Of a stretch of DNA of 64,000 nt, positions 16,847-59,590 are shown in pieces. This DNA comes from Plasmodiophora brassicae (Eukaryota > Endomyxa > Phytomyxea > Plasmodiophorida > Plasmodiophoridae). The number at the start of each line of letters is the position of its first letter. Position 1 is the stretch's first letter. The stretch lies in assembly GCA_039704465.1 (NCBI GenBank), contig JASFAU010000008.1:558001-622000 (forward strand), in the 5' to 3' direction. The notes below the pieces were generated by a model. The model saw nothing but the letters and a program-made list of their open reading frames with translations, did not search any database and had not been told where the DNA came from. A program made the translations under genes and the position numbers.

Positions 16847-19800
16847 ATGAGGTTGTCCGCAGGCGCATTGGCGCTTTGGCATCTGCTTAGCCAGGCGGCG
16901 ATCGCGCAGATCATCGTCACGGGCGATGGCGGTACCTTGCCGGCATCCGTCTACACGGATGCGGCGACGCTGTACACCTTCGTTCGTCGGGACGTGGCCG
17001 TCCTGTACAACGCGGTCGGATCCGGCACCGCCAAGGCGGCCTACGCCGCCGGCACGGGCGTCTTCGGGTGTAGCGATTCGCCCATCAGCGATTCGATGTA
17101 CGCCAGCTACCCGGACCTGCAGATGGTACATGCGACCCCCATTGTGACGCCGACCCTCTTCCGAACGACTGACTGCTTCCTGACGTTCAGTTCCCGACGA
17201 TCGCCACTGCTGTGGTGCCGATTTACAACGTCCCCGAATTGACGAAGCCCCTTGTCCTGACGCGCTCTGCGCTGGCCAAGATCTTCATGGGCGTTATCAC
17301 GTGGTGGAACGATTCGATGATTGCGCAGACGAACCCGGGCCAGACCCTTCCCAGACAGCCAATCACGGTTGTCGTCCGGCAAGACTCCAGTGGCACGACC
17401 AACGTGTTCTCCAGCGCACTGTCTTCCTTCGATGCCTCGTTCAAGGCTCACTTCGGGGGCGCCGACCTTGTCAACTGGAACGTCACCAATCTTGTCAAAG
17501 GCGTGGGCAACCCCGGCGTCGTCGCCAACGTCCTCATGACGCCCTACACAATTGGATGTAGGCGGGAGGTGCCCCCTCGCACACGGTCGTACTCTGATAC
17601 CAAGATGTCTCATAGACAGCGTCCTGTACGACGCACAGAGCGTGGGCGTGTCCATCGCCCACATCGTCAACCTAGCTGGCATGACGGTGGCGCCGGGTAC
17701 TGATGGCGTCATGCGGGCAGTGGAAGCCACAGACGGGAGCTTTGACGCGCGCATGAATATCAATCTGGTGGACTCGAGCTCACCGGGCGCCTGGCCCATC
17801 TCCACGTTCACCTACCTGATCTTCCATACCCAGGTCGGCACCGATTGCCCGTTGAAGGACGAGGCACTGAAGTTCTGGCTGTGGTTCTACACGAGCCCAG
17901 CGGTGGCGGCTACTGCCGAAAAGTACGGGTTCGTCTCCCTGTCGACAGGTTCCCAGAGCGCGGTTCTCAACAAGCTGTATTCCTCTGTGAAATGCAACAA
18001 TGTCCAGCTGGAACGGCCTCCTGTGCCCCCCACCATCGCTGGTGCCGGTGTCCAGGTTGCACAGCCCATTTTCAACATCTTCGGGCATGCGTTCGCCGAA
18101 ACTGGCCCGAGTGCGATCAGGGACACCTACACCCTGGTATACTCGAAACAAATGGATTACATTGGCGCCATCCAGCAGGTCCTTAACGGGTCCATTGCGT
18201 TCGCCGTCGTTCCGGGTGCCACCGTCCGCAAGCTATCGGCATCGGACGTCAGCCAGATCGTATCTGTGCCATACTTTTCCATGGCGACCGTCTTGGCCTA
18301 TGTGCTTCCGTCCCAGACCAGGACCCTGGCGCTGTCGGTTGACGTTATCCGGAAGATCCTGATGGGCACCATCTGCATGTGGAACGATCCGGCTCTGGTG
18401 GCGCTGAACCCATCCATGACGCTGCCGAACCAGGCGATATCGGTGGTGATGCCGCTGGACCCGAACCACCCGTCAACCGTGAACCTTTACGGTATCCTGT
18501 ACCCGAATCAGCCGCTGCAAGCGTTCACGCCTTGTAATACGATACTGGAGCCCACGTCGGCAACCGTGGAGTCGGCTCTGCTCGTCAAACCGTACTCGCT
18601 CGGCTACTTCGAGCTGGCGCAGACCACATCGGACACCTACGCCAACATCCTGTTCGATGGGTACACGACGCCGGTGACACCTTCGAGCGCCTCGCTGACC
18701 AATTGCGCGACGTATGGTTCCACATCGGCCACGTGTTATCAACTACGGTTTCCAATGCACATTGTCGCCCGGCAGCAGTACGCGTCAGTGGCAACCAGCT
18801 CTGGGTGCCCGGATGGTCTGCGCGTCGCCCAGACGTTGGGGTGGCTCTTCAACCCATCCATATCAGAAGCACCCATTACGCAGATGAATCTGGGATCGTA
18901 CCCGTTCTCGAATTCGACAGCCGGTTCGCCGGCCGCCCAAATCACATGCGATGGAGTATCCCTTCTGTCGCCGCCGGTTGTCACAGTTACCAATGTCTTC
19001 AAGCGCCTGCAGGTCCCGTCAGGCATCTCGGCAGCGGTTATTTCGCTAATGGTGATTGGCGTCGTATTGGCCTTCAGCGTTATGGCGTTCCAGTACTATT
19101 ATCGCTCCCTGCCGTACATTCAGATGACATCGCCTCTCTTCAACAACATCATTGCTCTTGGGGCAGCCATGGGATTCGTGGCACCCGCGATCACCGCCTA
19201 CCCGGCCATGAGCGACCCCGCGTTTGCACTTCAGTGCAATTTCCAGATGGTGCTCTTTTGTCTCGCGTTCACGTTGACGTATGGCGGATTGTTCGTGAAG
19301 ACGTGGAGGGTATACAAGGTCAGCCAGGGTCATTGGCAGCCTGCACTTTGTACAGCTGGCTTATGGCGTCTCTGTCCTGTGTAGATATTCATCCTGCTTC
19401 GTCTGAAGACGGTGATCGTGACGAACGTGATGCTGTTGCGTCACCTGGCCATGTTTCTCCTGATTGACGTGGTCCTCCTGGGGACCTGGATGATCAAGGA
19501 GCCCATGATCATGGGCTTGCAGAACGAGCAAACGTATGTCGACCCAGCGGCTCCGACAACGCGCACGATCACCCCTCAGGAGTCGTTCTGCTACTCACCG
19601 AACCGGTCCTCATTCCTCATTGCAATGGTCGCGTACAAGGGTGCGATCCTCATTATGGGATCCTGGATCTCCTTTCAAACATCATCTGTCGAGATCCAGG
19701 CTCTCAACGACTCCAAACTGATCGGCCTCTGCATCTACAGCTCATCTTTGATCGCCATCGTAAGCCAGCGGAATATGAAATATTAACGCTCGATCTGATT

Positions 19801-20115
19801 CACTGAGGCGGGTAGCTGACGGGTCCGCTGATATCCTTCATCAGCGCTCAGCCGGCCGTCACCCTGCTGGCCACCTCGCTGGCCGTTTTCTTCACGCTGG
19901 CATCAACGCTGGGCATCCTTTTCGTCCCCAAGTTCATCGTCGTGAAATCGGGGCAATCGGAGACCCACACGGTCTCCAAGAACAAAACGCCCACGCTGAT
20001 GAACACCAAGCCCACCGTCGAGAACGCGTCCGGGCGCCCGTCGAGCAACACGAGGGCGGTCGTCTCCAGCAAGGCACCTGCGGTCAACGTCTCCAGCAGC
20101 GGCGCTATAATGTGA
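16847..20115 (+). CDS. Receptor A: tandem PstS-like binding modules fused to class C seven-helix domain
   Basis: Exons 16847-17125, 17191-17557, 17616-19318, 19385-19759 and 19816-20115 give 1007 codons. After a signal peptide, residues about 20-330 match PstS-type phosphate-binding proteins: YNAVGSGTAKAAYAAGTGVFGCSDSPIS, VVPIYNVPEL, ALAKIFMGVITWWND and VVVRQDSSGTTNVF. Residues about 340-640 are a second, diverged module (GSIAFAVVPGATV, VIRKILMGTICMWNDPALVALNP). From about 684 there are seven hydrophobic helices of the GABA-B-like class C type: SPLFNNIIALGAAMGF, CNFQMVLFCLAFTLTYGGLFVKTWRVYKIF, LNDSKLIGLCIYSSSLIAI and ISAQPAVTLLATSLAVFFTLASTLGI. A Ser/Thr-rich tail of about 60 residues follows. 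It is probably a plasma-membrane receptor for an anion or small metabolite acting through G proteins; the ligand is unproven. Confidence 0.88.
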
Positions 20116-20294
20116 GCAACGTGACACGACATCTGCATCGATTGCTTGGGCATCCAGGCGCGGGGGACGAATACGAATACAGGCCTCGTGTTGACCACGT
20201 TGATCATTGGCAATCGCCTGTCTGTCTCTATTCGTGATTTGTTTGCCAGGCCCAGGCAGCAGGTACCGGTCTGGACGGACAGCGGCACATCGCC

Positions 20295-23200
20295 TCACAT
20301 GATGGCGCCTGTGCCACCAGAGACGTTGCGCAGCGCTGACGTGTTCAGGTTGGGCGCCCGGGACTGGCCGGTCGCCGGGCGGCCGACCGGGTGTGCCACC
20401 GTGTCCCTGGTCGTCGTCTTCTCCGTCGGCGTCGCATCCTTGTTCTTGGTGATTGTCTGAGTTTGCGACTTGCCAGACTTCACGACGATCAACTTGGGGA
20501 TGAACAGGATGGCCAGCGTTGACGATAGCAGGATGAACACCGCCAGCGTCGTCGCTAGAAGCGTAATGGACGGCTGGGCGTTGATGAAGGATATCAACGG
20601 GATCGTCAGCTGCATGCAGTGCATCAGACCACGTTTGCGCATAGGCGGTCGATCCCTACGATGGCGATCAACGACGAGCTGTAAATGCATAAACCGATCT
20701 GCTTGGAGTCGTTCAGCGCCTCGATCTCCACAGAGGAGGTCTGTAACGAGATCCACGACCCCATGATGAGGATCGCGCCCTTGTACGCGATCACTGCGAT
20801 GACGAACGAGGACCGATTCGGCGAGTAGCAGTACGCTTGTTGTGGGGTAATCGTTCGCGTTGTGGGCGCCGCCGGATCCACGTACGTCGGGTGAGTCTCA
20901 AGCGCCATGGTCATCGGCTCCTTGATCATCCAGGTCCCCAGGAGGACCACATCGACAAACAGCAGCATCGCCAGCTGCCGCAGCAGCATCATGTTCGTCA
21001 CGATCACTGACTTTAACCGCAGCAGCACGAATATCTACGTTGGGCGACACGTCCCGTGTGAACATAATGGCAGGTGGCATCAAGTCAACACAATCTGACC
21101 TTGTAGACCCTCCAGGTTTTCACAAACAGGCCGCCGTACGTCAGCGTGAAGGCGACGCACAGCAGGATCATCTGGAAATTGCACTGGAAGGCAAACGCGG
21201 GATCACTCATGGCCGGATACGCGGTGACGGCGGGCGCCACGACACCCAAGGCGGCCCCAAGCGCAATAATGCTGTTGAAGAGGGGGGACGACATCTGAAT
21301 GTAGGGCAGCGCCCGGTAGTGGTACTGGAAGGCCACAACGCCGATGGATGCGACCAGGCCAATGACCATGATCGCAATGACCGTGGCCGAGATGCCCGGC
21401 GATATCGTTAGACGTTGCACGACATTGGTGATGGTGACGACAGGTGGCGCCAGTATCGACACTCCATCGCACGTGATCTGGGCGGCCGGCGACTCGCTTG
21501 TACTGTTCGTGAACTGGTACGACCCCAGGTTCATCTGTGTAATGGGCGCTTCGGAGATGGACGGGTTGAAGAGCCATCCCAGGGTCCGGGCGACGCGCTG
21601 ACCATCGGGGCACCCAGCGCCGGACGCCCCTGACGTGTACTGCTGCCGGGCGACGACATGCATCGGGAATCGTAGCTGGTAACAAGTGGCCGACGTGGGA
21701 CCATACAACGAACAGTTGGTCAGCGACGAGCTCGACGGGGCGACCGGTGTCGAGTGCCCTTCGAACAGGACGCTGGCGTAGGTGTCCGCTGTGGTCTGTT
21801 CCATCTCGAAGTATCCGAGCGAGTACGGTTTGACGAGCAGCGCCGCTTGGGCCGACGCCGATGTGGACGCCAAACTGAAATGGCAGGGCGTGAACGCCTG
21901 CAGAGGCTGATTCGGGTACAGGATACCGTAAAGGTTCACGGTCGACGGGTGGCTCGGGTCCAGCGGCATCACCACCGATATCGCCTGGTTGGGCAGCGTC
22001 ATGGACGGGTTCAGCGCCACCAGAGCCGGATCGTTCCACACGCAGATGGTGCCTTTGAGGATGTTACGAATGGAGTCGACCGACAATGTCAGCGTTTTCG
22101 TCTGGGACGGCAGCGCGTAGGCGAAGATGGTCGCCATGGAGAAGTACGGCACAGATACGATCTGGCCGGCGTCCGATGCCGATAGCTTGCGGACGGTGGC
22201 ACCCGGAACGACGGCGAACGCAATGGACCCGTTAAGGACCTGCTGGATGGCGCCCATGTAATCCGGTTGCTTCACGTATTCGAGACTGTAGGTGCCCCGG
22301 ATGTCGGCAGGGCCTGTCTCGGCGAACGCATGCCCGAAGATGTTGAAGATGGACTGTGCAACCTGGACTCCGGCACCAACGATGGTGGGGGGCACAGGAG
22401 GCCATTCCAGCTGGACGTTGTTGCATTTCACAGATGTATACAGCTTGTTGAGAACGGTACTGAGAGAGCCCGTCGACAGGGTGACGAACCCGTACTTTTC
22501 GGCAGTAGCCGCCACCGCTGGGCTCGTGTAGAACCACAGCCAGAACTTCAGTGCTTCGTCCTTCAACGGGCAGTCGGTGCCGATCTGGGTATGGAAGATT
22601 AGGTAGGTGAACGTGGTGATGGGCCAGGCGCCCGGTGCGCTCGCGTCCAGGACGTTAACGTTCATGCGCGCATCGAACACGCCGTCTGTGGCTTCCACTG
22701 CCCTCATGACGCCATCGTTACCGGGCGCCACCGTCATCCCGGCAAGGTTCACCATGTGGGCGATCGATACGCCCACGTATTGAGCGTCGTATAAGACGCT
22801 GTCTATGAAACATCTTGTCAGGCGACAGCAATGACAGCAAATGCAGACACAGCCCTGCCTACATCCAATTGTGTGGGGCGTCATGAGGACGTTGGCGACG
22901 ACGCCCGGGTTGCCCACGCCTTTGATGGTGTTGGTGACGTTCCAGCTGACAAGGTCGGCGCCCCCGAAGTGAGCCTTGAACGAGGCATCGAAGGAAGACA
23001 GTGCGGTGGAGAACACGTTGGTCGTGCCACTGGAATCTTGCCGGACGACAACCGTGATTGGCTGTCTGGGAAGGGTCTGGCCCGGGTTCGTCTGCGCAAT
23101 CATCGAATCGTTCCACCACGTGATAACGCCCATGAAGATCTTGGCCAGCGCAGAGCGCGTCAGGACAAGGGGCTTCGTCAATTCGGGGACGTTGTAAATC

Positions 23201-23576
23201 GGCACCACCGCAGTGGCAATCGTCGGGAACTGAACGTCAGGAAGGAGTCAGTCGTTCGGAAGAGGGTCATCGTCACAATGTGGGTCGCGTGTACCATCTG
23301 GAGGTCCGGGTAGCTGGAGTACATCGAATCGCTGATGGGCGAATCGCTACACCCGAAGACGCCCGTGCCGGCGGCGTAGGCCGCCTTGGCGGTGCCGGAT
23401 CCGACCGCGTTGTACAGGACGGCCACGTCCCGACGAACGAAGGTGTACAGCGTCGCCGCATCCGTGTAGACCGATGCCGGCAAGGTACCGCCGTCGCCCG
23501 TGACGATGATCTGCGCGATCGCCGCCTGGCGTAGGAGGTCGCATACGACCACCAATATCGTGGCCGACAACCTCAT
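20295..23576 (-). CDS. Receptor B: paralogue of receptor A, opposite strand
   Basis: This has the same layout as receptor A, read from ATG 23576 (MRLSATILVVVCDLL) to the stop at 20295. The exons correspond one to one: signal peptide and GSGTAKAAYAAG on the first; VPIYNVPELTKPLVLTRSAL on the second; the long third exon (to about 21105) with the rest of the first module, the second module and helices 1-3; a fourth (to about 20643) with helices 4-6; and a fifth with LTIPLISFINAQPS and the tail. The first exon is nearly identical to that of receptor A, while parts of the second module are nearly identical to receptor C. It converges with receptor A, only about 180 bp separating the two stops. Expected to be a functional membrane receptor. 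Confidence 0.87.
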
Positions 23577-23893
23577 CGTGGCGAACCGCGATCCTTCACT
23601 AGCCTTGTGACTGGCGGCCCGGTCGGGCCACTGTCGCTGCCTGACCTGGAAGTATATACTGTAGTGCTACCCTGTACCGAGGCGCTGGGCCGAGCTGACC
23701 AATGGGTCACCTGTCGACCTCCGGGTGGTCGTTCGAGGCTCCTATGGTTCGAGTTGGTTGGCGATGGAGTGCAACCAATGCCGGGCATAACCCATTGCAG
23801 GTTGCATAGACCAACAGCTGCGTTGCCGATAGTCGACGCCCAATCCGACATCGGCGACCGAATCCCCGCTGCGTCCAACCAAATGCACACGAT
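23577..23893 (-). promoter_or_regulatory. Probable promoter region of receptor B
   Basis: This 317-bp gap lies between the stop of receptor C and the start of receptor B, on the same strand. It contains an AT-rich TATA-like stretch (TATATACT read on plus at about 23653-23660) some 75-80 bp upstream of the receptor B ATG. No other element was recognised. The TATA assignment rests on position only. Confidence 0.3.
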
Positions 23894-26800
23894 TCATTGC
23901 AGCGGTGGCGCATGGGGCACCTGGCCGATGTCGGCGACGCGGTACTTTCTGTGCCACCAGAACTGTGGTGAATCGTGGCTGGGCCTGATCGGACTGGCCG
24001 GCGGTCGGGACGGAGTCGCAGGGCCGGTGGGCGTCTCCCGGGTGGCTCCCATGCCCGTCGACGTCAGCTTGTCTCTGTTCTTGGAGATCGTGTGCGTTTC
24101 CGACTCGCCGGAGCGTACGACGATGAGTTTGGGGATGAACAGGATGCCCAGCGTCGACGCCAGCGTGAAGAAAGCGGCCAGCGTAGTGGCGAGCAGGGTG
24201 ACAGCCGGCGGAGCATTGCTGAAGGTTATCATCGGCATTGTAAGCTGTAACAGGCGCGAATCAGAGCATGCTGGCATACGTGCTGGCGTGGCCTGACGAT
24301 GGCAATCAACAGGGCGCTATAGATGCACATGCCGATCTGTTTGGAGTCGTTCAGGGCCTGGATCTCGACGGACGAGGTCTGGAACGACACCCAGGACCCC
24401 ATGATGAGGATGGCGCCCTTGTAGACGACCAGCACGAAGATGAATGACGACCGGTGCCGCGAGTTGCAGAATGCTTCCTGTGGGGTAATCATACGCGACG
24501 CCGGTGCCGCCGGATCCGCGTACGATTGCCCATCCTGCAGAGCCATGGACATGGGGTCCATGATCATCCACGCCCCCAGCACCACCACATCAACCAGCAG
24601 AAGCAGGGCGAGATGACGCAACAGCATGACGTTCGTCACAATCACCGTCTTCAGGCGAAGCAGGACGAATATCTGCAAAGGACATGAATACCGCTTCAGT
24701 CGGCATCGAAAGCGTCGAACCTTATAGACCCTCCAGGTCTTGACAAACAGGCCACCATACGCCAACGTGAACGCAATGCAGAACAGTACCATTTGGAAGT
24801 TGCACTGAAGCCCAAACGCGGGATCATCCATGGCGGGGTACGCTGTGATGGCGGGCGCCACGAACCCCAAGGCGGCCCCAAGTGCAATGATGCTGTTGAA
24901 GAGCGGAGATGACATCTGAATGTACGGCAGGGATCGATAATGGTACTGGAACGTTAGAACGCCGACGGCCAGGGCTAGCCCAACGGCCATGATTGCGATA
25001 ACGGCGGCAGATATGCCGGCAGGGACCGGAAGGCGCTGGAAGACATTGGAGACTGCGACGACCGGTGGCGCCAGGATGGACACCCCGTCGCATGTGATCT
25101 GGGCGGCCGGCGAATCGGCTGTCGTGTTGGCGAGCCGGTACGCCCCCAGGTTCATCTGCGTAATGGGCGCGTCGGAGATGGACGGGTTGAAGAGCCATCC
25201 CAGGGTCCGGGCGACGCGCTGTCCATCGGGGCACCCAGCGCCGGACGCCCCTGACGTGTACTGCTGCCGGGCGACGACATGCATCGGGAATCGTAGCTGG
25301 TAACAAGTAGGCGATGCGGATCCATGCAACGTACAGTTGGTCAGCGACGAGCTCGATGGTGACAGTGGCGTCGAGCGCCCATCGAACAGGATACGGGCAA
25401 CGTTGTCCGATGCGGTCTGCGACAGCTCGTAGTACCCCAGCGAGTATGGTTTGACGAGCAGCGCCGCTTGGACAGACGGCGACGTGGGCTCCAGAAGCGA
25501 ATGGCAGGGCGTGAACGCTTGCAGAGGCTGATTCGGGTACAGGATACCGTAAAGGTTCACGGTCGACGGGTGGTTCGGGTCCAGCGGCATCACCACCGAT
25601 ATCGCCTGGTTGGGCAGAGTCATGGACGGGTTCAGCGCCACCAGAGCCGGATCGTTCCACATGCAGATAGCGCCGTTCAGGATCTTCCGGATAACGTCGA
25701 ACGACAGCGTCAGCGTCTCAGTCTGGGGTGGGAGTACGTAGGCGAAGACCGTTGCCATTGAAAAGAATGGGACCGATAGGACCTGGCTGGCATCCGATGC
25801 CGGTAATGCATTGACGGTGGCACCTGGCACAACAGCAAATGCAATGGACCCGTTCAGGACTTGCTGGATGGCGCCCGTGTACTCCACTGTCTTCACGTAC
25901 TCGAGCGTATACGTGCTCCTGACATCGGCCGGGCCACTCTCGACGAAAGCATGCCCGAAGATGTTGAAGATGGACTGGGCCACCTTCACGCCGGCTCCGA
26001 CAATCGTGGGTGGCGCAGGTGGCGCCTCCAGCTGGACGCTGTTGCATTTCACGGAAGAATACAACTTGTTGAGAACGGTATTGAGAGAGCCCGTCGACAG
26101 GGTGACGAACCCGTACTTGCCGGCGGTAGCCGCCACCGCTGGGCTCGTGTAGAACCACAGCCAGAACTTCAGTGCATCATCCTTCAACGGGCAGTCGCTG
26201 CCGAGCTGGGTATGAAAGATCAGGTAGGTGAACGTGGAGATGGGCCAGGCGCCCGGTGCGTTCGAGTCCAATAGGTTGATGTTCATGCTCGCGTCAAAGT
26301 CGCCGTCGTTGGCTGCGACTGCCCGCGAAACGCCATCGATTCCGGGGGCCACCGTCCGGCCAGCTAAGTTCACGATGCGGGCGATCGACACGCCGACGTT
26401 CTCAGCGTCGTATAGGACGCTATCTGTGTAGCATATGGTCAGATGCGATCGATAACCAAGCACCGGCCCTGAACGGCCTACATCCGATGGAGTAGGGCGT
26501 CAACAGGACGTTGGCGACCACGCCCGGGTTGCCGACTCCTTGGATCACGTTGGTGACGTTCCAGTTGACCAGGTCGGCCCCACCGAAGTGGACCTTGAAC
26601 GAGGGATCAAACGACGATAATGCAGAGGAGAACACGTTGGTCGTGCCACTGGCGTCTTGCCGGACAACAACCGCGATTGGTTGGTTGGGCAACACCTGGC
26701 CCGGGTTCGCCTGCGCGATCATTGAATCGTTCCACCGGGTGATAACGCCCATGAAGATCTTCGCTAGCGCGGGACGCGTCAGGACGAGCGGGGCCGTCAG

Positions 26801-27191
26801 CTCCGGCACGTTATAAATCGGCACCACAGCAGTGGCAATCGTCGGGAACTGAGCACACGACGGCATTCAATCGGCACACTATCAAGCGATCGTGCGAACG
26901 AGCGCATACCATTTGAAGGTCTGGCGTGCTGGCGTACATGGAGGCTGCTATGGGCGAGTCGCTGCACGCGAACGTGCCCGTACCGGCAGCGTACGCCGCC
27001 TTCGCCGCACCGGACCCGACCGCATTGTACCGGACGACCACCTCGGGGCGGACGAACGTGTACAACGTCGCCGCGTCCTTGTAGACGGCCTCTGGCAATG
27101 TGCCGCCGGGGCCGCCCACGATGATATGGGCAACGCCAACCTCAAGGAGCGCCTGCCAAGCCGTCAATATGACGATGAATAACATCACCAT
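23894..27191 (-). CDS. Receptor C: more diverged paralogue of receptors A and B
   Basis: Read from ATG 27191 (signal-anchor-like MVMLFIVILTAWQALLEVG) to a stop at 23894. The first module has YNAVGSGAAKAAYAAGTGTFACSDSPIA and VVVRQDASGTTNVFSSALSSF. The second has VIRKILNGAICMWNDPALVALNP. The helices are conserved (TLAYGGLFVKTWRVYKV, LNDSKQIGMCIYSALLIAIV). The intron between the third and fourth coding exons, about 24675-24725, happens to contain no stop, so one frame runs through it. The first exon and tail differ most from A and B. It is arranged head to tail with receptor B on the same strand; about 317 bp separate its stop from the start of B. Confidence 0.86.
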
Positions 27192-27452: not shown

Positions 27453-29495
27453 TTATCGCAGGGCGAGATCGATCGTGTCGGGGTGGTTGGGGTTCGTGGA
27501 GACGGCGACAGCAACGTGTTTGATGAGGTCGGACGATATACCGTCCCTATCGACTTCGTGCGCAGTGATGCACGGTCGTATCGTGCCGCGTTGGCCACAG
27601 GCGACCACGATTCTGGCGTCCACCTGGTACAGGTCCAGGGTGTGCAGGTCGGCCAAGGCGTCCATGACATGCAGAACGTCCTGACCCGTCAGCCCCGACA
27701 ACGCACGACGGTTTCCAAGCACCATCTGCTGGATTCGGGGAGCCCGACTCGCAATGCCACGAACGCCTCGAACGTCGACCGACGTGCACAACCCGATGTC
27801 GAGGCTTGTCAGCGTGGCACCGCACGCCTCCAGGATCTCGTGCAGCGCGTCGCTGGAGATGGCGCACAGCGACATGCGCAGCGTTGTCAGCACCGTCGAA
27901 CGCGACAGGAGCGCCGCGATCCCCGTCCCGCGGACGCCAACGCAGGCCGACACGGTCAGCGACACGAGGTTCGGCAGACGCAGCGACGCGAGATGCGCAT
28001 CCCTTAGCGTCGCATTGTTCGCCAGGTTCACATGGGAGAGCAACGGGGCCGACGACCCAAACCCGTCTAGGCGTGACACGTCGCGCTGGCGGCACAGGAC
28101 GACCTTGGACAGGACGGGCCACGTCCCGGCACGAAGCGGGAGCGATCCCAGCGACGCCGACCGCAGGGACGGCGACAGCGTAGCGACGACCGCGATTGCG
28201 TCTCGTGTGTGCATTCGCTCGCAGCCGGAGGCGAATAGGTGTCGAATTCGAGGGCAGTGCCTTGCAATGGAATGCAGTGATGCGGAGGTCAGGGCAGTGT
28301 TGTAGGAGACGTCCAGGTACGTTACCCCAGGTAGGCGTGCCACGAGCTCGCCCACAGCGTCGTCTGTTACACCACTGCATGACGCCATTGTCAGCTTCGA
28401 CAGCAACGAAGACAGCGCTGAGGATCGTGTCGCGGATGCCTTTCGCATTGATATTGGTTCGCGTTCTACAGCGTCGCCTGCCTCTGATTCGGCATCGCGT
28501 GCAGGACCACATGGCGACAAGTCGGGGATATCAGCGCTGGTAGGTGATGCACGCGGCAGCGTGAACGTCGAGGTGGCCATGTGCGGCTCTGTAATGGGAT
28601 CGTCGTATTCGGGATCGAACGTGCAACCGTCCATATCGAAGGACTCGATGGCGGGAAGCGTGAAGATGAGAGCCGGGAGGCCTCTCAAGGCCGGGTTCCC
28701 TGCGCAGGACAGTGAACGTAATCGCTGCAGTGGTACAGACGTCAATGATTGTGCAGGTAGATTGCAGTGGGAAACATCCAGGGACGTTAATTGGCGATGC
28801 AGCGCGTTGCTTCCTTCGGCGAGGATAGCGGCAGCAATTCGCGGGCACCCCGGGACGCCTAGTGATGTCAGCGAAGGCAACGCCGCGATTAACGTTGGCA
28901 ACGAGGAGCTGTTCGAGTGCGAGGACCGCGACATGTTCAAGGTGTGGAGGCGTCTGGTTGAAATCAGGTTGGCAATCTGCGATGCGGTTACAGAGCCGCA
29001 AGCAGCGATCACGTTCGCGTGCGTACAGACGAACGATAGCGAGCGGACCTGGTCCGCATGCCGGACGACAGCATCGACGGCGGAGGGCTTTGCTCGACAT
29101 TCGATCGTGATCGAAGTTCGTCGACGGAGCATGCGGCGGAGACGTCGTTGCCGGGATAGCGCGGCACCGATCGTTATGTGCGGGTACGCATACGACGCTC
29201 GATGGAACGCAGAACAGGACGGAGCGACGCCCAGGAACAGGCTTCGGCTATCCAGGCAAGGCAGCACCTGGCCAACAAACACTGCATGGGGTACTGGAAT
29301 CGGCCAGTCCAGAAAAGGCGACGGACGCGATGCCGATAGAGACGCTTCCTCGCTGCTGGTGCTGCTATTGCGGCTGCTGACGCATGGCGCAACGCTGGAA
29401 GGCGCGGACGACTCGGCGCTCAACGACGGCGAACGATGTCGTTTCGGGGACGGCAAACGGCGCTCGTGGCCTGGCGAGACCACGAACGCCGACAT
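27453..29495 (-). CDS. Leucine-rich-repeat protein, F-box/LRR type
   Basis: One uninterrupted minus-strand frame gives about 680 residues from ATG 29495; the frame extends upstream to an ATG at 29618. After a Ser-rich N-terminus there is an F-box-like helix region (AVFVGQVLPCLDSRSLFLGVAPSCSAFHRAS), then cysteine-type LRRs of about 25 residues with the pattern LxxLxxxxCxxxxxxxL. Examples are LTSLDVSHCNLPAQSL, KLTMASCSGVTDDAVGEL, VTYLDVSYNTALTSASL, LVSLTVSACVGVRG and LTSLDIGLCTSVDVRGV. This repeat type is typical of F-box/LRR substrate receptors (FBXL, GRR1, AMN1) of SCF ubiquitin ligases. The F-box match is weak, so an AMN1-like protein without an F-box is an alternative. Confidence 0.72.
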   Translation of the reverse strand: MSAFVVSPGHERRLPSPKRHRSPSLSAESSAPSSVAPCVSSRNSSTSSEEASLSASRPSPFLDWPIPVPHAVFVGQVLPCLDSRSLFLGVAPSCSAFHRASYAYPHITIGAALSRQRRLRRMLRRRTSITIECRAKPSAVDAVVRHADQVRSLSFVCTHANVIAACGSVTASQIANLISTRRLHTLNMSRSSHSNSSSLPTLIAALPSLTSLGVPGCPRIAAAILAEGSNALHRQLTSLDVSHCNLPAQSLTSVPLQRLRSLSCAGNPALRGLPALIFTLPAIESFDMDGCTFDPEYDDPITEPHMATSTFTLPRASPTSADIPDLSPCGPARDAESEAGDAVEREPISMRKASATRSSALSSLLSKLTMASCSGVTDDAVGELVARLPGVTYLDVSYNTALTSASLHSIARHCPRIRHLFASGCERMHTRDAIAVVATLSPSLRSASLGSLPLRAGTWPVLSKVVLCRQRDVSRLDGFGSSAPLLSHVNLANNATLRDAHLASLRLPNLVSLTVSACVGVRGTGIAALLSRSTVLTTLRMSLCAISSDALHEILEACGATLTSLDIGLCTSVDVRGVRGIASRAPRIQQMVLGNRRALSGLTGQDVLHVMDALADLHTLDLYQVDARIVVACGQRGTIRPCITAHEVDRDGISSDLIKHVAVAVSTNPNHPDTIDLALR

Positions 29496-29686
29496 GGCTA
29501 TGTACAGTAAACGATCGACTGTACCGCCGGCACGTCCAAGATCGCGCACGAAAGCCGGTCGCAGCCTCATCAGGTGCAGTCTACGGTTGGGGCGGCGCCG
29601 CTGCGCAGAGAACGCCACACCTGCGATGTCTGCAGATGTATATACCAGTCGCGCTTAGCGTACATGAAATCGCAGGGGCTGGCCGT

Positions 29687-30391: not shown

Positions 30392-32287
30392 TCATCGCAG
30401 AGACCGAAACACGAGGTCAGCGTTTTCGAGGTCGCCGACAAGAACGTAGGCGTAGACGAACGCGGACGCCACCGCGGGATCGTCGGACACGTTCTTCTCG
30501 TCGGAGCAGCGCTGCAGGTTGACCACGGCAGACGGTTGCAGCGACCTCCCGGCCGCTCTCACGAGACCGGCCATCAAGGTGCCACCGACCTGTACGCCCT
30601 GGTCGACCATTGCATGAAACATGGCCAACGCATGCGAAAAGCGATCCGCTTTGGCGTACACACAGAGCATGTTCGCGAGCACCTCCACTATTAGCCGCTG
30701 GCCCGACTTCTTCACCATCATGAATGTGTCCATTGCTTTCGCAAGCTGCCCGTGCCGGCTGTACGCGACGATCAGCGCGTTGCACGTGACGACATCGGGA
30801 AGAGCCGTCATTGCCCGCTCGTGAAACACCTGTTCTGCGAGGCGCAACTCGCCGAACAGGTCGTACACAGACACGAACGCGCACACGACGGTATCGTCAT
30901 CGAGCAGGCGCGCCTCATGCGCGTACCGGTGAAGGCGGTAGATCGATATTCTGTCAGAGCAGCGACCACATGCGGCAACGAGGCATGCGAACGCAGGCGC
31001 ATCAACCGCGACGCCCTCGTCCACCATAGTCTGGTACAAAGCCATGGCATCGTCGGTGCGATCCGCCTTGGCATAGACGGACAGCGCATTCGTGTACACG
31101 TGTTCGTCGAGCGCCAGGCCGGACGATTTCAGGCGTTCAAACGTGTGGATTGCGCGCTCCAGCATGCCATGGTGGGCGTAGGCGGCGATCATCGCGTTGA
31201 ACGCTTGCAGGTTCGGGGTCGCCTGTTCCGACCGCTCCCGGAACACGTGTTCGGCGGCGCCCAGATCGCCACAATGGTCGTACGCGTAGACGAACGCGCA
31301 GACGATAAAGTCGTCGCCCAGTACACCGCGCTCGAATGCATAGCGATATAGGGCACGGACGTCTGCGGGCGTGCCCGTTCGGCCACACGCCGCAACGACC
31401 TGCGAGAACACAGGCGTGTCAACGTCAACGTACCGTTCGACCATCTGATGGAACAGCGCCAGCGCGTCGAGGAGACGGTCGTTCTTGGCGAGCGCAGACA
31501 GAGCCAGGGTGTAGACGTGCGCCGATGGCGACATGCCGATGGCGTGCATCCAGTGGATGGCGTTGACGGCGGGCGAAAACCGGTTCTGGGCCAGGATCGC
31601 CTTGACGAGGTTGGCGTACACGCGTTCGTTGCGATGCGGGTGGATCCGACCCGACCGGATCAGGTCCAGCAAACGTTCGGCGGTGTCGGCGGCCGCCGGG
31701 CTCTTCGCTTCAGCGCAGCACGCCGCGAAGATGGAGAGCAGCGGCTCGCTGATAGGCACATCACGGTCGACCGCATCGGCCACGAGGAACAGGGCCGACG
31801 ACGGTTGGTTTGCCACCCGGCACGTATGGGCCACCGCGAACAGAACGTCGTGGGTCTTCGGGCCCCATTTCGCGAACGATTCCAGAGCATCGCCAATCAT
31901 GGGCGGATCGGCATGCTGGCACGCCGCGAGGAGCGTCAGGAACAGCGTCTGGTCGACGCGATGGCGACGAGCGACCGCCGCCTGGAGCACCGTCGGCGCC
32001 TTCGACGGGAGATGATGCCTGCAGAACGACATCACCGACTGGAAGAACGGCAGGCTCGTCATGTCGTATCGCGTGCCGAGCACGCGCTGGTACACCGCCC
32101 ATGCGCGATCCGGGTCGGTCTCCTGCCGCAGCGCCCGGATCGCCAACCCTGCAGACGGGCGGCGCATGAAATCCAGGAACCGTTTCGCCTGCGACGGCCC
32201 CGGTTCGCCGTCGGCGCGAACGCTCAGCAGGCGGGCCCATTGCGGTCGCCGACGACGAAGAAGCACGCGGGCGCCATCACCCGGCAT
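30392..32287 (-). CDS. Pentatricopeptide-repeat (PPR) protein, organellar
   Basis: An intron-free frame of 631 residues. The N-terminus is rich in Arg and Ala without acidic residues (MPGDGARVLLRRRRPQWARLL), as expected for mitochondrial import. From about residue 60 onward it is built of roughly 35-residue helical-hairpin repeats of PPR type, for example NAMIAAYAHHGMLERAIHTF, TNALSVYAKADRTDDAMALY, NALIVAYSRHGQLAKAMDTF and ANMLCVYAKADRFSHALAMF. PPR proteins bind organellar transcripts in a sequence-specific way and act in processing, stability or translation. No C-terminal catalytic domain (E, DYW, SMR or NYN nuclease) was seen, so it is a P-type RNA-binding factor. Which transcript it binds cannot be told. 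Confidence 0.86.
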   Translation of the reverse strand: MPGDGARVLLRRRRPQWARLLSVRADGEPGPSQAKRFLDFMRRPSAGLAIRALRQETDPDRAWAVYQRVLGTRYDMTSLPFFQSVMSFCRHHLPSKAPTVLQAAVARRHRVDQTLFLTLLAACQHADPPMIGDALESFAKWGPKTHDVLFAVAHTCRVANQPSSALFLVADAVDRDVPISEPLLSIFAACCAEAKSPAAADTAERLLDLIRSGRIHPHRNERVYANLVKAILAQNRFSPAVNAIHWMHAIGMSPSAHVYTLALSALAKNDRLLDALALFHQMVERYVDVDTPVFSQVVAACGRTGTPADVRALYRYAFERGVLGDDFIVCAFVYAYDHCGDLGAAEHVFRERSEQATPNLQAFNAMIAAYAHHGMLERAIHTFERLKSSGLALDEHVYTNALSVYAKADRTDDAMALYQTMVDEGVAVDAPAFACLVAACGRCSDRISIYRLHRYAHEARLLDDDTVVCAFVSVYDLFGELRLAEQVFHERAMTALPDVVTCNALIVAYSRHGQLAKAMDTFMMVKKSGQRLIVEVLANMLCVYAKADRFSHALAMFHAMVDQGVQVGGTLMAGLVRAAGRSLQPSAVVNLQRCSDEKNVSDDPAVASAFVYAYVLVGDLENADLVFRSLR

Positions 32288-32494
32288 GCGCGAAAATGGC
32301 TTCCCCGGCCGGGTGCTTCGCCATCGTCACACGGGGACCACCAGCAGCGGGGGGCCACAGTCGGACAGATAGAGGCGTTCGTGTGTCGAGTGGTGTGCAC
32401 ACTCCAGGGGTCAGCTGGGCGGCGGTATCCTTCGTTGGCTGGGTTGCTTCCCGAGGCGGTCCGGATTTTCTCCGTACGAAGGACAGGGCGGGTC

Positions 32495-33497: not shown

Positions 33498-36400
33498 TTA
33501 TGCAGCACTGAACTGATCTCCGGTGGGCCCGGGTGCCAGTTTCCTGGACGACGAGCCGGGCAGCACGATGAACAGGGTGGCGGGGAAGAACCCGATGGCG
33601 TACAGAAACCCGATCTTGGCGGTCAGCGCGACGACGACGCCGAACTCGACAAAGATCTGGACGTCGCAGAAGGCGAGGATCAGGGTGCTGCCGAAGGTGG
33701 CCAACGTGGACCAGAGCACGCCGCACCCGGCCATCGTCATGCCCCGAATCAGGCGCGCGTGTGCGTCCGCCCCTTTGCTGTCCTGGTAGGCGCTAGCAAT
33801 GTGCAGCTGGAAGTCGAGCGCCACGCCGATCAGCATGGACAGCGACACGAGCTCGACGACGCCGACTTTCCAGCCAAGCAGGACGATGCAGGCGCCGATG
33901 CAGACGAACACCATCACTTGCGTCACCATGCTGATCAAGACGATCCGTACGCTTCTCGTCAACGCGATCAGGGATAACGTGCATGCGGCGACCGTGAACA
34001 CCACCGAGTACAGCGTTCCTGTGACCAGCGCCGTTTCCATGCCCATCAGGTTCCACCGCGACGACGTCTGGTACGCCTTCGCCACCGCACCGCTCCCGGC
34101 AGCGTTCACCCTGTCGGTGAACGCGTTCCACTGCCCGTAGTAGCCCATCAGGGCCGAGCCCGACAGCGACGTGTCGATCAGGGTGACGACCGGGATCCTC
34201 AGGAACAGAACACGTCCGGTACTGACATCGATGCCGACGTCGTCCTGGTAGTTGCTGCCGGCGCCGCTCTCCAGGAACGCCACCAGCTGCGACGTCAACG
34301 TCGACGACGACGACCGGATCGGGAACGACCCGTTGCCATGCTGGGCGACCTGATAGTCGCGCCAGTCCTCGCCGATGCACGTGAACGACGGGCGCACCAT
34401 GGCGGGCCACTGCCTCAGCATCTGGCACGTCGTCACGATGTGCGATTGCATGGCGGGCGACGACAGGTTGAAGTTCGGGTCCCAGATCGGCGCGGCCAGC
34501 GTCTTCTCCGAGTCCCGTGTCTTGGACGCCGCCCAGTTCGGCGTGGGTTCGACGCCCCAGACGACGTAGACGGTGACCGCCTTCTGCGTCGGCACGGCAT
34601 CAGCAGCAGCGACGACAGGCGCCATTGTCGCGCCCGGCGGCGCCGTCTGCGATATCGATGACGTGGCAGGTGCGGACCCCCCGATTTCGCACATGTACCC
34701 GGTGCGACCTGGTGGGCAGATACAGGACGCGCTTGCGACGGTGCCGGTGTGCGGGTCGCTCACCGGGACGCACTTGCCGCGCCCGGAGCACGGCGCCTGG
34801 TGCGGGCTGTACCCCGGGCACGTCACATTGCAGTGCGCACCGAACGCACCGTCGCCGCACGCGCACGTTGCATTAACGCTCGTCGGTGCGTACGCGCACG
34901 ACAAGGTGCGTAGGTACGAGCAGCCTTCCGCGATGCCGTTGTCGACGCAGTACTTCCAGGCCAGCTGGCACAGGTTCGCCACCGGGCACCCGTTCTGCAC
35001 GTACGACATGCACGACGAGATCGACGTCGTCGACGACGTGCACTGGTTGTACAAGGAGCTACACGTCGGCGATAGCGACGCGACGGTGGTCGATGCCCAC
35101 GGGTTGGAGAACCGGCAGGATCCCGCGCCGCATGGCCCGCAGGTGGCCTCACAGTTCAGGCCCGCATACCCCGGGTTGCACTTGCAGAACTGGGATGACA
35201 CGCCGGTGGTGCACACCCCGTTCGTTCCACACGACAGCGAACAGGCCGGTTTCGCGGACGTCGCGCGCTTCGTTGCGACGACACCTGCGGCGGGAGCGGG
35301 AGCCTGTGTGGGCTTCGAGGTCTGGGCCGCCCCTGCAGATGCATTTGTGGGCCCAGAAGGGGCGACCGCGGCGCTTGGCGCGGATGTGGTCGGGGACGTG
35401 GCTTGCGACAGCATGAACTGGCACGAATCGCATGACGGCAGGTCCTGTTCGTATGCGAGCTGAAGGCGCTGGAAGTTGCTGCCGTTCGGCATGACTTGCG
35501 GCATCGAGGACGGCGTCGTTAAGCCAGTGCACAGGTACGCGAACCAGGCGGTGCCACCCAGGAACACGGCCGCGATCAGGAACCGGTGCCGGCCCGTGAA
35601 TCGAGCGAACGCTCGCATCCACCGATGCCGGCGCTTGACGACGACCCCGTCACCGTCGTCGACAACATGTATGTCGTTATCCTGACGTGACGGGTACCGC
35701 TTGCCATGCCAGACGATACAGGCGGGGACAAATGTGCTAGCGACGACGAACGCGATGAGGACGGAGAAGCCCAGGAACCCTCCGAACTGCCTGATGATGT
35801 CGATCGACGAGAAGGAATTGGAGAAGTGTCCGATGGCGGTCGTTGCTGACGTGGCGAACATGCAGTTACGAGCATGGGTGAACGTCCAGGCGAGGCGTTC
35901 AGTGCTGGTGTTGTATGGCGCCTGGTGCCACAGGTCGTGGAACTTGAAGATGTGATCGCACATGACGCCCAGGACGATCCAGAGCGACGTCAACGCCAGC
36001 AACGAGAACGTGGTCCCGTAGATGACGAGGTACACGGCGATCGTCGTGATGAAGACGATGGCGATGGCGGCGATGCCGACAAAAGCCAGCCAGAGCGACG
36101 CCATGATGACCCACATGCACGCGAACGCGAACAGGAAACTAGCCATGACCAGAAGGACATCGTGCCAGACGGCTTGGTAGACCTGGGTCAGTAGGATGTC
36201 GCCACCGGTGAACAGCACCTGGATCCTGGGGGTCGACAACCCGCTCAGGAACGGGATCAGTTCGTTCATCGCGGCCCTGATCGCATCGGCTTGCTGTGAC
36301 ACTCGGTCGTTAATATCGGTGTACCCGGGCAGAGGCATGCCTGCGTTGAAGTTCGACAGGAGCGTTCGGGACCTCGGGGTCTTTGGCGTGATGAACCGGT

Positions 36401-37181
36401 CGAACAGTTGGTACAGGTTCAGGGACAGGGCGATCTGCGTCGATATCGGAACAGGTTGCTCGATGCTCCCACGACCGTCGTACTCGACGCCGCCGCGCGC
36501 GAACGACGGGTACACGATCCTGGTGAACGATTGCGGTTGCTGGCACTCCTGGCCGTCCAGCATGCAGATCGACTTCCAGATCGGGTTCGCCAGCAGCGTC
36601 TGCTCAACCTGGCGGATCGTGGCGATGTCGTCGGAATTCAGCAGGTCACCGGAAGTCGACACGAAGACGAGGACGAGCGGCAGCGACGTGTACGTACGAG
36701 TTGAATCGGAGAGCGGCGAAAACGCATGCGACGATAGGTACTGTGTCCGCTGGTAGGAGTACGTCAACGGCGAGGCGGACATGAGCGCGTTGAACCCGTC
36801 GCTGTATTCGGGCATGCTGTAGTCGATGATGTTCAGATCGAGGTAGAGCGGGCTCACAAGGAAGTGGGTGTACGCGATGTACACCAAGGACAGCAATGGG
36901 ACGAATAACGACAAGGCGACAGAGGCGCATGGTCGTCGCGATACGAAGCGGGAGATGGGCCCCGGTTGAATTGGATTGCTCGAAGATGCAGCGCCGTTTA
37001 GTTTGGAAGGCGCTGGCAGGGGGTCACAGCGGTCAGAAGGCGCAGGCGATGGCCGCCTGGCAATGTCCTGTTGCTCGGGCGGAAGGTGCCGCTCGCTCCA
37101 TGGGCGAACCCGGATGGCTTTCGTCGGCAGGGCCGCCGACGAGGACATCTCGGATGCCGAGATGGAAACGTGACCTGTCAC
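33498..37181 (-). CDS. Dispatched/Patched-like SSD protein with EGF-like modules
   Basis: One intron-free frame of 1227 residues. A first membrane helix lies near residue 95, then an extracellular loop. A sterol-sensing-domain-like five-helix block follows at about 325-500 (LLVMASFLFAFACMWVIM, TSLWIVLGVMCDHIFKFHD, FGGFLGFSVLIAFVVASTFV). The second extracellular region contains Cys-rich EGF-like modules, about 645-690 (CGTNGVC, CKCNPGYAGLNCEATC) and about 775-830 (CSGRGKCVPV, CICPPGRTGYMCEIG). A second helix block lies at about 1045-1210, with SMLIGVALDFQLHIASAY. The charged residues in the fourth helices (VMCDH and GVALD) match the GxxxD proton or cation site of RND transporters. The protein is expected to move lipids or release lipid-modified proteins at the cell surface; the substrate is unknown. 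Confidence 0.85.
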   Translation of the reverse strand: MTGHVSISASEMSSSAALPTKAIRVRPWSERHLPPEQQDIARRPSPAPSDRCDPLPAPSKLNGAASSSNPIQPGPISRFVSRRPCASVALSLFVPLLSLVYIAYTHFLVSPLYLDLNIIDYSMPEYSDGFNALMSASPLTYSYQRTQYLSSHAFSPLSDSTRTYTSLPLVLVFVSTSGDLLNSDDIATIRQVEQTLLANPIWKSICMLDGQECQQPQSFTRIVYPSFARGGVEYDGRGSIEQPVPISTQIALSLNLYQLFDRFITPKTPRSRTLLSNFNAGMPLPGYTDINDRVSQQADAIRAAMNELIPFLSGLSTPRIQVLFTGGDILLTQVYQAVWHDVLLVMASFLFAFACMWVIMASLWLAFVGIAAIAIVFITTIAVYLVIYGTTFSLLALTSLWIVLGVMCDHIFKFHDLWHQAPYNTSTERLAWTFTHARNCMFATSATTAIGHFSNSFSSIDIIRQFGGFLGFSVLIAFVVASTFVPACIVWHGKRYPSRQDNDIHVVDDGDGVVVKRRHRWMRAFARFTGRHRFLIAAVFLGGTAWFAYLCTGLTTPSSMPQVMPNGSNFQRLQLAYEQDLPSCDSCQFMLSQATSPTTSAPSAAVAPSGPTNASAGAAQTSKPTQAPAPAAGVVATKRATSAKPACSLSCGTNGVCTTGVSSQFCKCNPGYAGLNCEATCGPCGAGSCRFSNPWASTTVASLSPTCSSLYNQCTSSTTSISSCMSYVQNGCPVANLCQLAWKYCVDNGIAEGCSYLRTLSCAYAPTSVNATCACGDGAFGAHCNVTCPGYSPHQAPCSGRGKCVPVSDPHTGTVASASCICPPGRTGYMCEIGGSAPATSSISQTAPPGATMAPVVAAADAVPTQKAVTVYVVWGVEPTPNWAASKTRDSEKTLAAPIWDPNFNLSSPAMQSHIVTTCQMLRQWPAMVRPSFTCIGEDWRDYQVAQHGNGSFPIRSSSSTLTSQLVAFLESGAGSNYQDDVGIDVSTGRVLFLRIPVVTLIDTSLSGSALMGYYGQWNAFTDRVNAAGSGAVAKAYQTSSRWNLMGMETALVTGTLYSVVFTVAACTLSLIALTRSVRIVLISMVTQVMVFVCIGACIVLLGWKVGVVELVSLSMLIGVALDFQLHIASAYQDSKGADAHARLIRGMTMAGCGVLWSTLATFGSTLILAFCDVQIFVEFGVVVALTAKIGFLYAIGFFPATLFIVLPGSSSRKLAPGPTGDQFSAA

Positions 37182-37480
37182 TGAAGGAACGGACGATGGA
37201 CGCTACACGAATGAAGTGATGCAGTCACAGGTCTCGCCCAAGGTTTGCTGCATGGTTGTCGTGTGCTGCCCGTGTTTATCAATGGCAACCTCTATCGTAT
37301 ATATAGACTGCGCGTCCAGGGACACATACACACCTACCCACAGGTGGTTGCGGGCCCGGCAGTGTCCTCAAGTATTAGCGGCGTGGCACCCATCCGACTC
37401 CGAGTCAGACACGTCTCTCCGCTAGGCGCTAGCACACGTCACTTCCCTATTGTGTACCCAGTTTAAGTTGCCATTGTAAA
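37182..37480. other. Gap upstream of the Dispatched-like gene
   Basis: About 300 bp between the start of the Dispatched-like gene and the stop of the cyclin gene, both on minus. It contains an AT-rich run TATCGTATATATAG on plus at about 37291-37304. No gene was seen. It should hold the promoter of the Dispatched-like gene. Confidence 0.35.
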
Positions 37481-51652: not shown

Positions 51653-51709
51653 TAACGACGAGTCGCAGTCCGCCCGCCCGGTCAGGAATAGCCAACAATC
51701 GGTCGTTGT

Positions 51710-54940: not shown

Positions 54941-55318
54941 CGGCTCGACGATTCAGGTGGTTGGCGCCAACTCCTGACCGCAGCGTGCAATTAGTGAACC
55001 GCACGACCTCATGGTCCCTTTCGGTCTACAAAGTTCCAAAGAACTTGCTACTCGGTTATGAAACGATTGCGGAAAGGCATAACACTTCCGAGAATCCGGT
55101 CAGACGACGAACGACTTTCGTGAAACATGTGAAATCCGGAATCCCCGATCTGTACCACGATCCGGAGCATCATGAGGGCATCCTTGGCGCGCCTGTCCCA
55201 CTCGACGTGGCTTCCGGGCAACAGTCACGCACCGATTCGCCTGGGCGAACCAAAGTGCGTCTGTCTCTGACAGTGTCTGACTCTGGCCGTGACCTACCGA
55301 CTACCGGTAGCCTCGGTT
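54941..55318 (+). other. Sequence upstream of U-box copy 1
   Basis: Contains an open plus-strand frame (to 55323) without family resemblance. Its last 80 bp before the TATA box resemble the sequence before the TATA box of copy 2 (GGGCGAACCAAAGTGCGTC against GGGCGAACAAAAAGTGCGTC), so the duplicated unit begins upstream of the TATA box. Confidence 0.4.
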
Positions 55319-55326
55319 TATAAATA
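55319..55326 (+). promoter_or_regulatory. TATA box of U-box gene copy 1
   Basis: TATAAATA lies 151 bp upstream of the signal-peptide ATG at 55470. The same octamer, with matching flanks (a downstream AAGGTCGGAGCGGA), occurs before copy 2. Conservation of element and flank between the copies supports the call. Confidence 0.6.
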
Positions 55327-55469
55327 AACCTTCCCACTTCGCGAAGGTCGGAGCGGAGCGGACTTCCGGGCGAAATCACTGGCTGCTGGGCGCTGTGCGG
55401 CTGTGGCTGCCGTCCGCATTTGACACGTCGCCTGTCGTTGGAGCCACCTTTGAAGTCTGGGGAGCAGCG

Positions 55470-59474: not shown

Positions 59475-59590
59475 AATAATCCCATTTCGGGAAGGTCGGA
59501 GCGGACTTCCGGGGCTGGGCGCTGTGGCTGCCGTCCGCACTTGACACGTCGCCTGCCGTTGGAGCCACCTTCGAAGTCTGGGCAGCAGCG

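Follow-up and report, generated by a model that had tools for sequence, protein, structure and literature searches.

The window analyzed here is a 64,000-nucleotide stretch of the genome of Plasmodiophora brassicae, the rhizarian clubroot parasite (assembly GCA_039704465.1, contig JASFAU010000008.1, forward-strand positions 558,001 to 622,000). It contains three side-by-side genes, here called A, B, and C, each encoding two tandem modules related to the phosphate-binding protein PstS, followed by a seven-transmembrane-helix (7TM) domain of the class C G-protein-coupled receptors (GPCRs). Gene A (16847 to 20115, + strand; 1007 amino acids [aa]) has exons at 16847-17125, 17191-17557, 17616-19318, 19385-19759, and 19816-20115. 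Its module 1, a PstS domain with an intact phosphate site, lies at 16907 to 18013 (aa 21 to 348), its module 2, a degenerate PstS-like domain, at 18026 to 18994 (aa 353 to 675), and its class C 7TM domain at 19007 to 19959 (aa 680 to 956). Genes B and C lie on the - strand and share this architecture. Gene B (20295 to 23576; 1013 aa; exons 23576-23295, 23229-22863, 22802-21100, 21034-20660, and 20609-20295) carries module 1 at 22402 to 23519 (aa 20 to 350), module 2 at 21424 to 22392 (aa 354 to 676), and the 7TM domain at 20466 to 21411 (aa 681 to 957). The corresponding parts of gene C (23894 to 27191; 1025 aa; exons 27191-26910, 26848-26482, 26423-24721, 24672-24298, and 24244-23894) lie at 26023 to 27134 (aa 20 to 350), 25045 to 26013 (aa 354 to 676), and 24101 to 25035 (aa 680 to 957). 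In all three genes, module 1 and the 7TM domain are each interrupted by two introns.

All three genes were spliced by hand into five exons each, with introns of 48 to 66 bases and GT-AG ends; these ends are no independent evidence, because the splice sites were picked by frame and homology. A search of the same genome (25.3 Mb, 21 contigs) revealed a fourth copy, gene D, on contig C17. The NCBI P. brassicae protein P0001 and model A agree at all 1007 residues, and a single residue out of 977 separates D from P0002; none of the 12 proteins matched in a whole-protein database search, P. brassicae included, was nearly identical to B or C. Full-length identity to C is 76% for A, 75% for B, and 51% for D. 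Intron positions match across the four copies, and exon 3 of A (17616-19318) is a single open frame running from the middle of module 1 through module 2 to TM3. Ratios of nonsynonymous to synonymous substitution rates (dN/dS) were 0.12 to 0.42 over the modules and the 7TM domain in all six gene pairs; the genes are therefore under constraint.

Module 1 is a PstS-type domain with an intact predicted phosphate site. The Pfam family PBP_like_2 matched two stretches per protein (110.5, 111.2, and 106.5 bits for A, B, and C, respectively; cutoff, 27), and all 19 matches of module 1 to solved structures at an E value of ≤0.001 were phosphate-binding or phosphate-transport proteins. The PstS equivalog model TIGR00975, run on isolated module 1 for two of the four copies, was passed by this module alone (C, 210.8 bits; A, 212.9 bits; cutoff, 205). 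Applied exon by exon over the genome, it scored no single piece above the cutoff (best of 17 matches, 149.2 bits), and 4 of 14 control genomes passed. The GSG and SGT loops, which a preliminary description of this DNA had singled out, are kept in module 1 of all four copies. So are the eight phosphate-contact positions (T31, L32, S60, D78, R157, S161, G162, and T163 in C numbering), with Leu in place of Phe at one of them, as in DING proteins. We take the equivalent contacts of Escherichia coli PstS to be T10, F11, S38, D56, R135, S139, G140, and T141; the last six are each kept in 117 to 118 of 120 bacterial-like relatives. A review of DING proteins describes the same eight kinds of contact, with Leu at the second position, and ascribes to the Asp the key role in phosphate specificity (PMC7922408; except where the whole text is referred to, this and the other publications cited here are represented by excerpts).

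The preliminary description had counted two PstS-type modules, which suggests two sites. Module 2 is indeed homologous to module 1 (hhalign probability, 97.9), but it has lost the phosphate site and is most likely ligand free. Its matches to solved structures were weak and confined to PstS structures (17/17 at an E value of ≤1; best, 4e-11), and module 2 of C alone scored 57.4 bits with TIGR00975, below the cutoff of 205. The Arg contact position is Pro in all four copies, the Ser-Gly-Thr motif is kept in none of the four (B aligns one Ser there), and the Asp contact position is Pro or unaligned. Two equal phosphate sites are ruled out by these lost contacts. Module 2 is still constrained (dN/dS, 0.23 to 0.42), and its profile scored at best 60.8 bits with bacterial PstS versus 24.8 bits with the second modules of other eukaryotes (P0005). 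The fold of module 2 rests on a structure model and the profile comparison, because the fold search covered mainly residues 21 to 348 and 679 to 955.

The seven-helix body belongs to class C. Pfam 7tm_3 matched once per protein (130.4, 122.5, and 137.1 bits for A, B, and C, respectively; cutoff, 33.5) and reached 155.5 bits in P0002, which is D but for one residue. Seven transmembrane helices with the class C fold were found, and the closest 7TM domain by both profile and fold was that of the GABA-B receptor. Two cysteines invariant in the four copies (C757 and C853 in C numbering) sit where TM3 begins and in outer loop 2, positions at which cysteines are a class C hallmark. Pfam detected no ANF (type I flytrap) match in A, B, or C; the heads are type II and PstS-like, and a type II solute-binding protein (SBP) domain thus occurs together with 7tm_3 in one protein. 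The preliminary description had proposed that the binding modules and GABA-B-like class C helices form one gene at each of these positions and had suggested a profile search; both PBP_like_2 and 7tm_3 scored above their cutoffs in A, B, and C, with 122.5 to 137.1 bits for the helices, which bears it out.

A search for the architecture across protists, also suggested there, was productive. Five further proteins outside P. brassicae combine PBP_like_2 with 7tm_3, namely, P0003 (MMETSP), P0004 (EukProt), P0006 and P0007 (environmental contigs), and P0075 (an environmental fragment with a single module directly before the 7tm_3 match). The head is present with no 7tm_3 match in P0005, P0008, and P0010. 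P0009, a kinase of medusavirus (a virus of Acanthamoeba), contains PBP_like_2 and kinase stretches, two of each, plus a cyclase match. P0003, P0004, and P0008 retain every contact residue; P0006 and P0080 have Ser at the T10 position, P0005 and P0075 keep the aligned contacts with the remainder unaligned, and P0010 keeps part of them. A weak second-module match was also seen in P0003 to P0007 and in P0009.

We consider it reasonably probable that A, B, and C are GABA-B-like class C GPCRs with a tandem flytrap sensor derived from PstS, the ligand of which would most likely be phosphate bound by module 1. In such a receptor, module 1 would most likely close on one inorganic phosphate ion (HPO4/H2PO4) held by the eight contacts, and module 2 would most likely be a ligand-free spacer or dimer partner beside the membrane. 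Module 2 would relay the closure of module 1 to the 7TM domain, which would in turn act on G proteins, and the receptor output would report phosphate around the parasite. The computed results establish the architecture, the intact site, the degenerate module 2, the class C fold, and the constraint, whereas phosphate as the ligand, a location at the cell surface, dimerization, coupling to G proteins, and the physiological role are inferred. The preliminary description was right to offer an extracellular phosphate sensor as a testable idea. G-alpha proteins gave 82 exon-level matches in the genome at an E value of ≤0.001, many of them above the cutoff, although the weakest may be other GTPases. 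Counted at the exon level, this set is large for a 25-Mb genome. A review of clubroot reports that an inhibitor of the GPCR pathway lowered symptoms (PMC9180986). The G-alpha matches and the inhibitor report fall short of showing G-protein coupling.

Several points weigh against this interpretation. The stricter PstS model NF008171 (PRK10918) was not reached (145.5 and 146.7 bits; cutoff, 339). The contact residues are absent from P0007 and P0009, and phosphate binding therefore need not be common to all such heads. The predicted structure had a predicted template modeling score (pTM) of 0.51, with low confidence at residues 352 to 364, 377 to 394, and 668 to 682, and its domain arrangement is unreliable at this pTM value. 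A signal peptide, claimed earlier for each gene, is likely on the basis of simple hydropathy: N-terminal hydrophobicity exceeded the threshold in three of the four copies (B, C, and D) and fell short of it in A. Finally, Rolfe et al. (2016) read the same kind of genes as transporters.

A receptor of the same build might instead sense another ligand, such as arsenate-like oxyanions or small organophosphates from the host or soil microbes. The Leu in place of Phe at the second contact would suit this possibility, the ligand cannot be read from sequence, and other class C receptors of the genome carry SBP_bac_1 heads that resemble sugar binders. All eight PstS contacts are kept, however, among them the Asp to which phosphate donates a proton, and esters are disfavored because the PstS site closes around one free ion. 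We regard a different ligand as unlikely.

Transport is the published explanation: the PstS head would capture phosphate and the 7TM part would import it (Rolfe et al. 2016). It draws on the fact that bacterial PstS serves an ATP-binding cassette (ABC) importer. The 7TM part here, however, is that of a class C GPCR by profile and fold, and we know of no transport role in that family. Permease subunits of the Pst-type ABC phosphate importer (PF00528) had no match in this genome, whereas all 14 control genomes had one. The 82 exon-level G-alpha matches likewise count against transport. The accompanying claim that no such fusion exists in other eukaryotes is contradicted by Krishnan 2012, by Seppala et al. 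2016, and by the five further PBP_like_2-7tm_3 proteins. We consider transport an improbable function.

Phosphate could also be a structural or tonic co-ligand, the signal coming from partner receptors or from mechanical or adhesive input. Phosphate inside the host cell may be near saturating, and a tandem in which one site is dead is reminiscent of a nonbinding partner subunit; no other signal input turned up, but none was looked for, and we hold this role to be very improbable. An artifact, i.e., bacterial contamination or modules and helices in separate genes, has a negligible chance: although the preliminary description itself raised the worry of separate genes, and such genes were unannotated or split in two in the e3 genome (PMC4815078), the hand-spliced models with exon 3 open across both parts, the matching introns in four copies, copy D, the NCBI protein matches of A and D, and a published transcriptome statement of single coding regions (PMC4815078) rule it out.

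Probable traces of exchange and decay are also seen at the DNA level. A and B are 92 to 100% identical per 100-base step over 16914-17512, intron 1 included, and 69 to 82% identical over 19008-19307 in the 7TM region; the A-B synonymous rate (dS) is 0.18 in module 1 versus 0.93 in the 7TM part. Gene conversion between A and B over the phosphate-site exons is the likely cause. A few kilobases from D, a fragment with in-frame stops (C17:187887-188210, + strand) is 53% identical to A residues 238 to 345 and is probably a relic copy of module 1 of D.

Trees of heads and bodies disagree. In a 52-row tree of module 1 (9 rows called eukaryotic and 43 bacterial-like rows of about 120), the nine eukaryotic heads formed one clade (100/100) within bacterial-like PstS; P0005 and P0006 come from metagenome contigs and are presumed eukaryotic. 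This tree omits P0008, P0010, and P0075 (short, long-branched, or partial) as well as P0007, P0009, P0011, and P0012. In an earlier 71-row head tree, 11 of the 12 rows called eukaryotic grouped together (98), with P0010 apart. In the 7TM trees, the PstS receptors of P. brassicae joined its six sampled ANF-type receptors (99/97 with 42 rows, 99/92 with 38 rows). Constraining P. brassicae, P0003, and P0004 to one group was rejected (approximately unbiased [AU] test, P = 0.009), as was pairing P. brassicae with P0003 (P = 0.0148), P0006 (P = 0.0032), P0075 (P = 0.0066), or P0007 (P = 0.0097) alone; these P values are optimistic because the groups were named after the first tree had been seen and branches are long. 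P0006 and P0075 had no firm place in the 42-row tree, and P0007 joined Bmp-type receptors with a long-branch warning. The simplest reading of the discordant trees is that a single eukaryotic PstS head has been combined with more than one class C body, displacing an ANF head in the plasmodiophorid line. Given the long branches, post hoc groups, and thin sampling, this discordance is a lead, not proof. Tentatively, bacterial PstS may have been captured once by eukaryotes and become a mobile phosphate-sensing head on at least two separate class C 7TM lineages, and perhaps on the distant medusavirus kinase; in the clubroot lineage it would have displaced the ANF flytrap from a GABA-B-like receptor, and the result would be phosphate-gated GPCRs in which one live and one dead flytrap stand in tandem.

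Class C bodies with other heads are present in the same genome, where 7tm_3 gave 70 exon-level matches and the head domains ANF, SBP_bac_1, and Bmp gave 19, 10, and 3, respectively. Judged by coordinates, nine of the 10 SBP_bac_1 matches have a 7tm_3 match downstream on their own strand at a distance of up to about 1 kb, the tenth being separated from one by about 5 kb; each of the three Bmp matches precedes a same-strand 7tm_3 match by no more than about 2 kb. PBP_like_2 had eight matches at five loci, one of which, on contig C19, has no adjoining 7tm_3 match. With ANF, Bmp, SBP_bac_1, and PstS-like matches beside 7tm_3, PstS is one of at least four head types. Class C receptors with SBP_bac_1, Bmp, or ANF matches nearby were noted at loci L024 to L032, L034 to L036, and L040; those of the SBP_bac_1 type probably include the published sugar-type fusions of Rolfe et al. 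The C19 locus (about 670600-673700; L018:2130-5226) encodes a further PBP_like_2 protein (36.7 bits on one exon), with an open frame just downstream that has a weak Ephrin_rec_like match (18 bits, below the cutoff); here a PstS-like head may be attached to another kind of membrane body.

Elsewhere in the window, the - strand carries a leucine-rich repeat protein (27456-29654), a pentatricopeptide repeat protein (30395-32326), a 1234-codon open frame with MMPL and sterol-sensing matches (33501-37202), and an AAA ATPase with a Vps4-like C end (49715-51709). Long open frames on the + strand at 47064-48404, 48109-49707, 55311-57305, 59480-60640, and 60364-61551 had no Pfam match at an E value of ≤0.001, and Rfam found no match over the window.

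The architecture was presented in the preliminary description as unfamiliar, and type I and BMP heads as the only known ones; neither statement holds. Fungal class C receptors with type II heads have been published, and this genome itself has SBP_bac_1 and PstS-like heads. Krishnan 2012 lists PBP_like_2 on a class C 7TM domain in Spizellomyces punctatus SPPG_06488 (PMC3251606), and Rolfe et al. 2016 reported that P. brassicae fuses a 7tm3 part to a prokaryotic binding domain, of phosphate type in four cases and of sugar type in four more; they presented these fusions, which their transcriptome supports as single coding regions, as a new transporter class unique to this species (PMC4815078). 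The phosphate-type genes (PbPT3Sc00024_A_2.266_1a, PbPT3Sc00024_A_2.266_1b, PbPT3Sc00024_G_2.43_1, and PbPT3Sc00100_Sm_1.225_1) are very probably A, B, C, and D; the comparison is by layout, three of them sharing a scaffold as A, B, and C do. The architecture and, very probably, these genes are in print, and novelty of the architecture is ruled out by these two papers. As far as the excerpts of the literature examined go, a module 1 that passes as PstS with all contacts, a dead module 2, the receptor argument, a eukaryote-wide head clade, and head-body discordance were not met.

To our knowledge, how microbial eukaryotes sense outside phosphate is poorly known. A GABA-B-like body that carries an intact PstS site offers a candidate extracellular phosphate receptor that can be tested directly, and the receptor reading, if true, would correct the transporter label published for this important crop parasite. 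If the head moved between bodies, whole sensor heads were exchanged as class C receptors evolved, and ligand prediction in protists should follow the head, not the 7TM domain.

The closest known systems include the genes of Rolfe et al., with the same organism, the same domains, and the same distribution of three genes on one scaffold and one on another. Their account differs in calling the products transporters, its full text containing neither "GPCR" nor "G-protein"; as excerpted, it also lacks the intact site, the dead module 2, the class C placement, and the relatives elsewhere. SPPG_06488, compared by description, likewise has PBP_like_2 on a glutamate-family (class C) 7TM domain but, unlike A to C, comes from a chytrid and appears a single time, in a list that gives no sequence, module number, or site analysis (PMC3251606, as excerpted). 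In the gut-fungal class C receptors of Seppala et al. 2016, as in A to C, the class C 7TM domain carries a type II binding-protein head, and published fungal class C receptors can also lack the ANF head (PMC5168858); the gut-fungal heads resemble sugar-binding proteins, whereas those of A to C are PstS-like. Bacterial PstS and DING proteins share the fold and phosphate site of module 1 but, unlike A to C, are free periplasmic or secreted proteins with no 7TM domain. The GABA-B receptor has the 7TM domain closest to that of A to C, and its own head is a type I flytrap that binds GABA.
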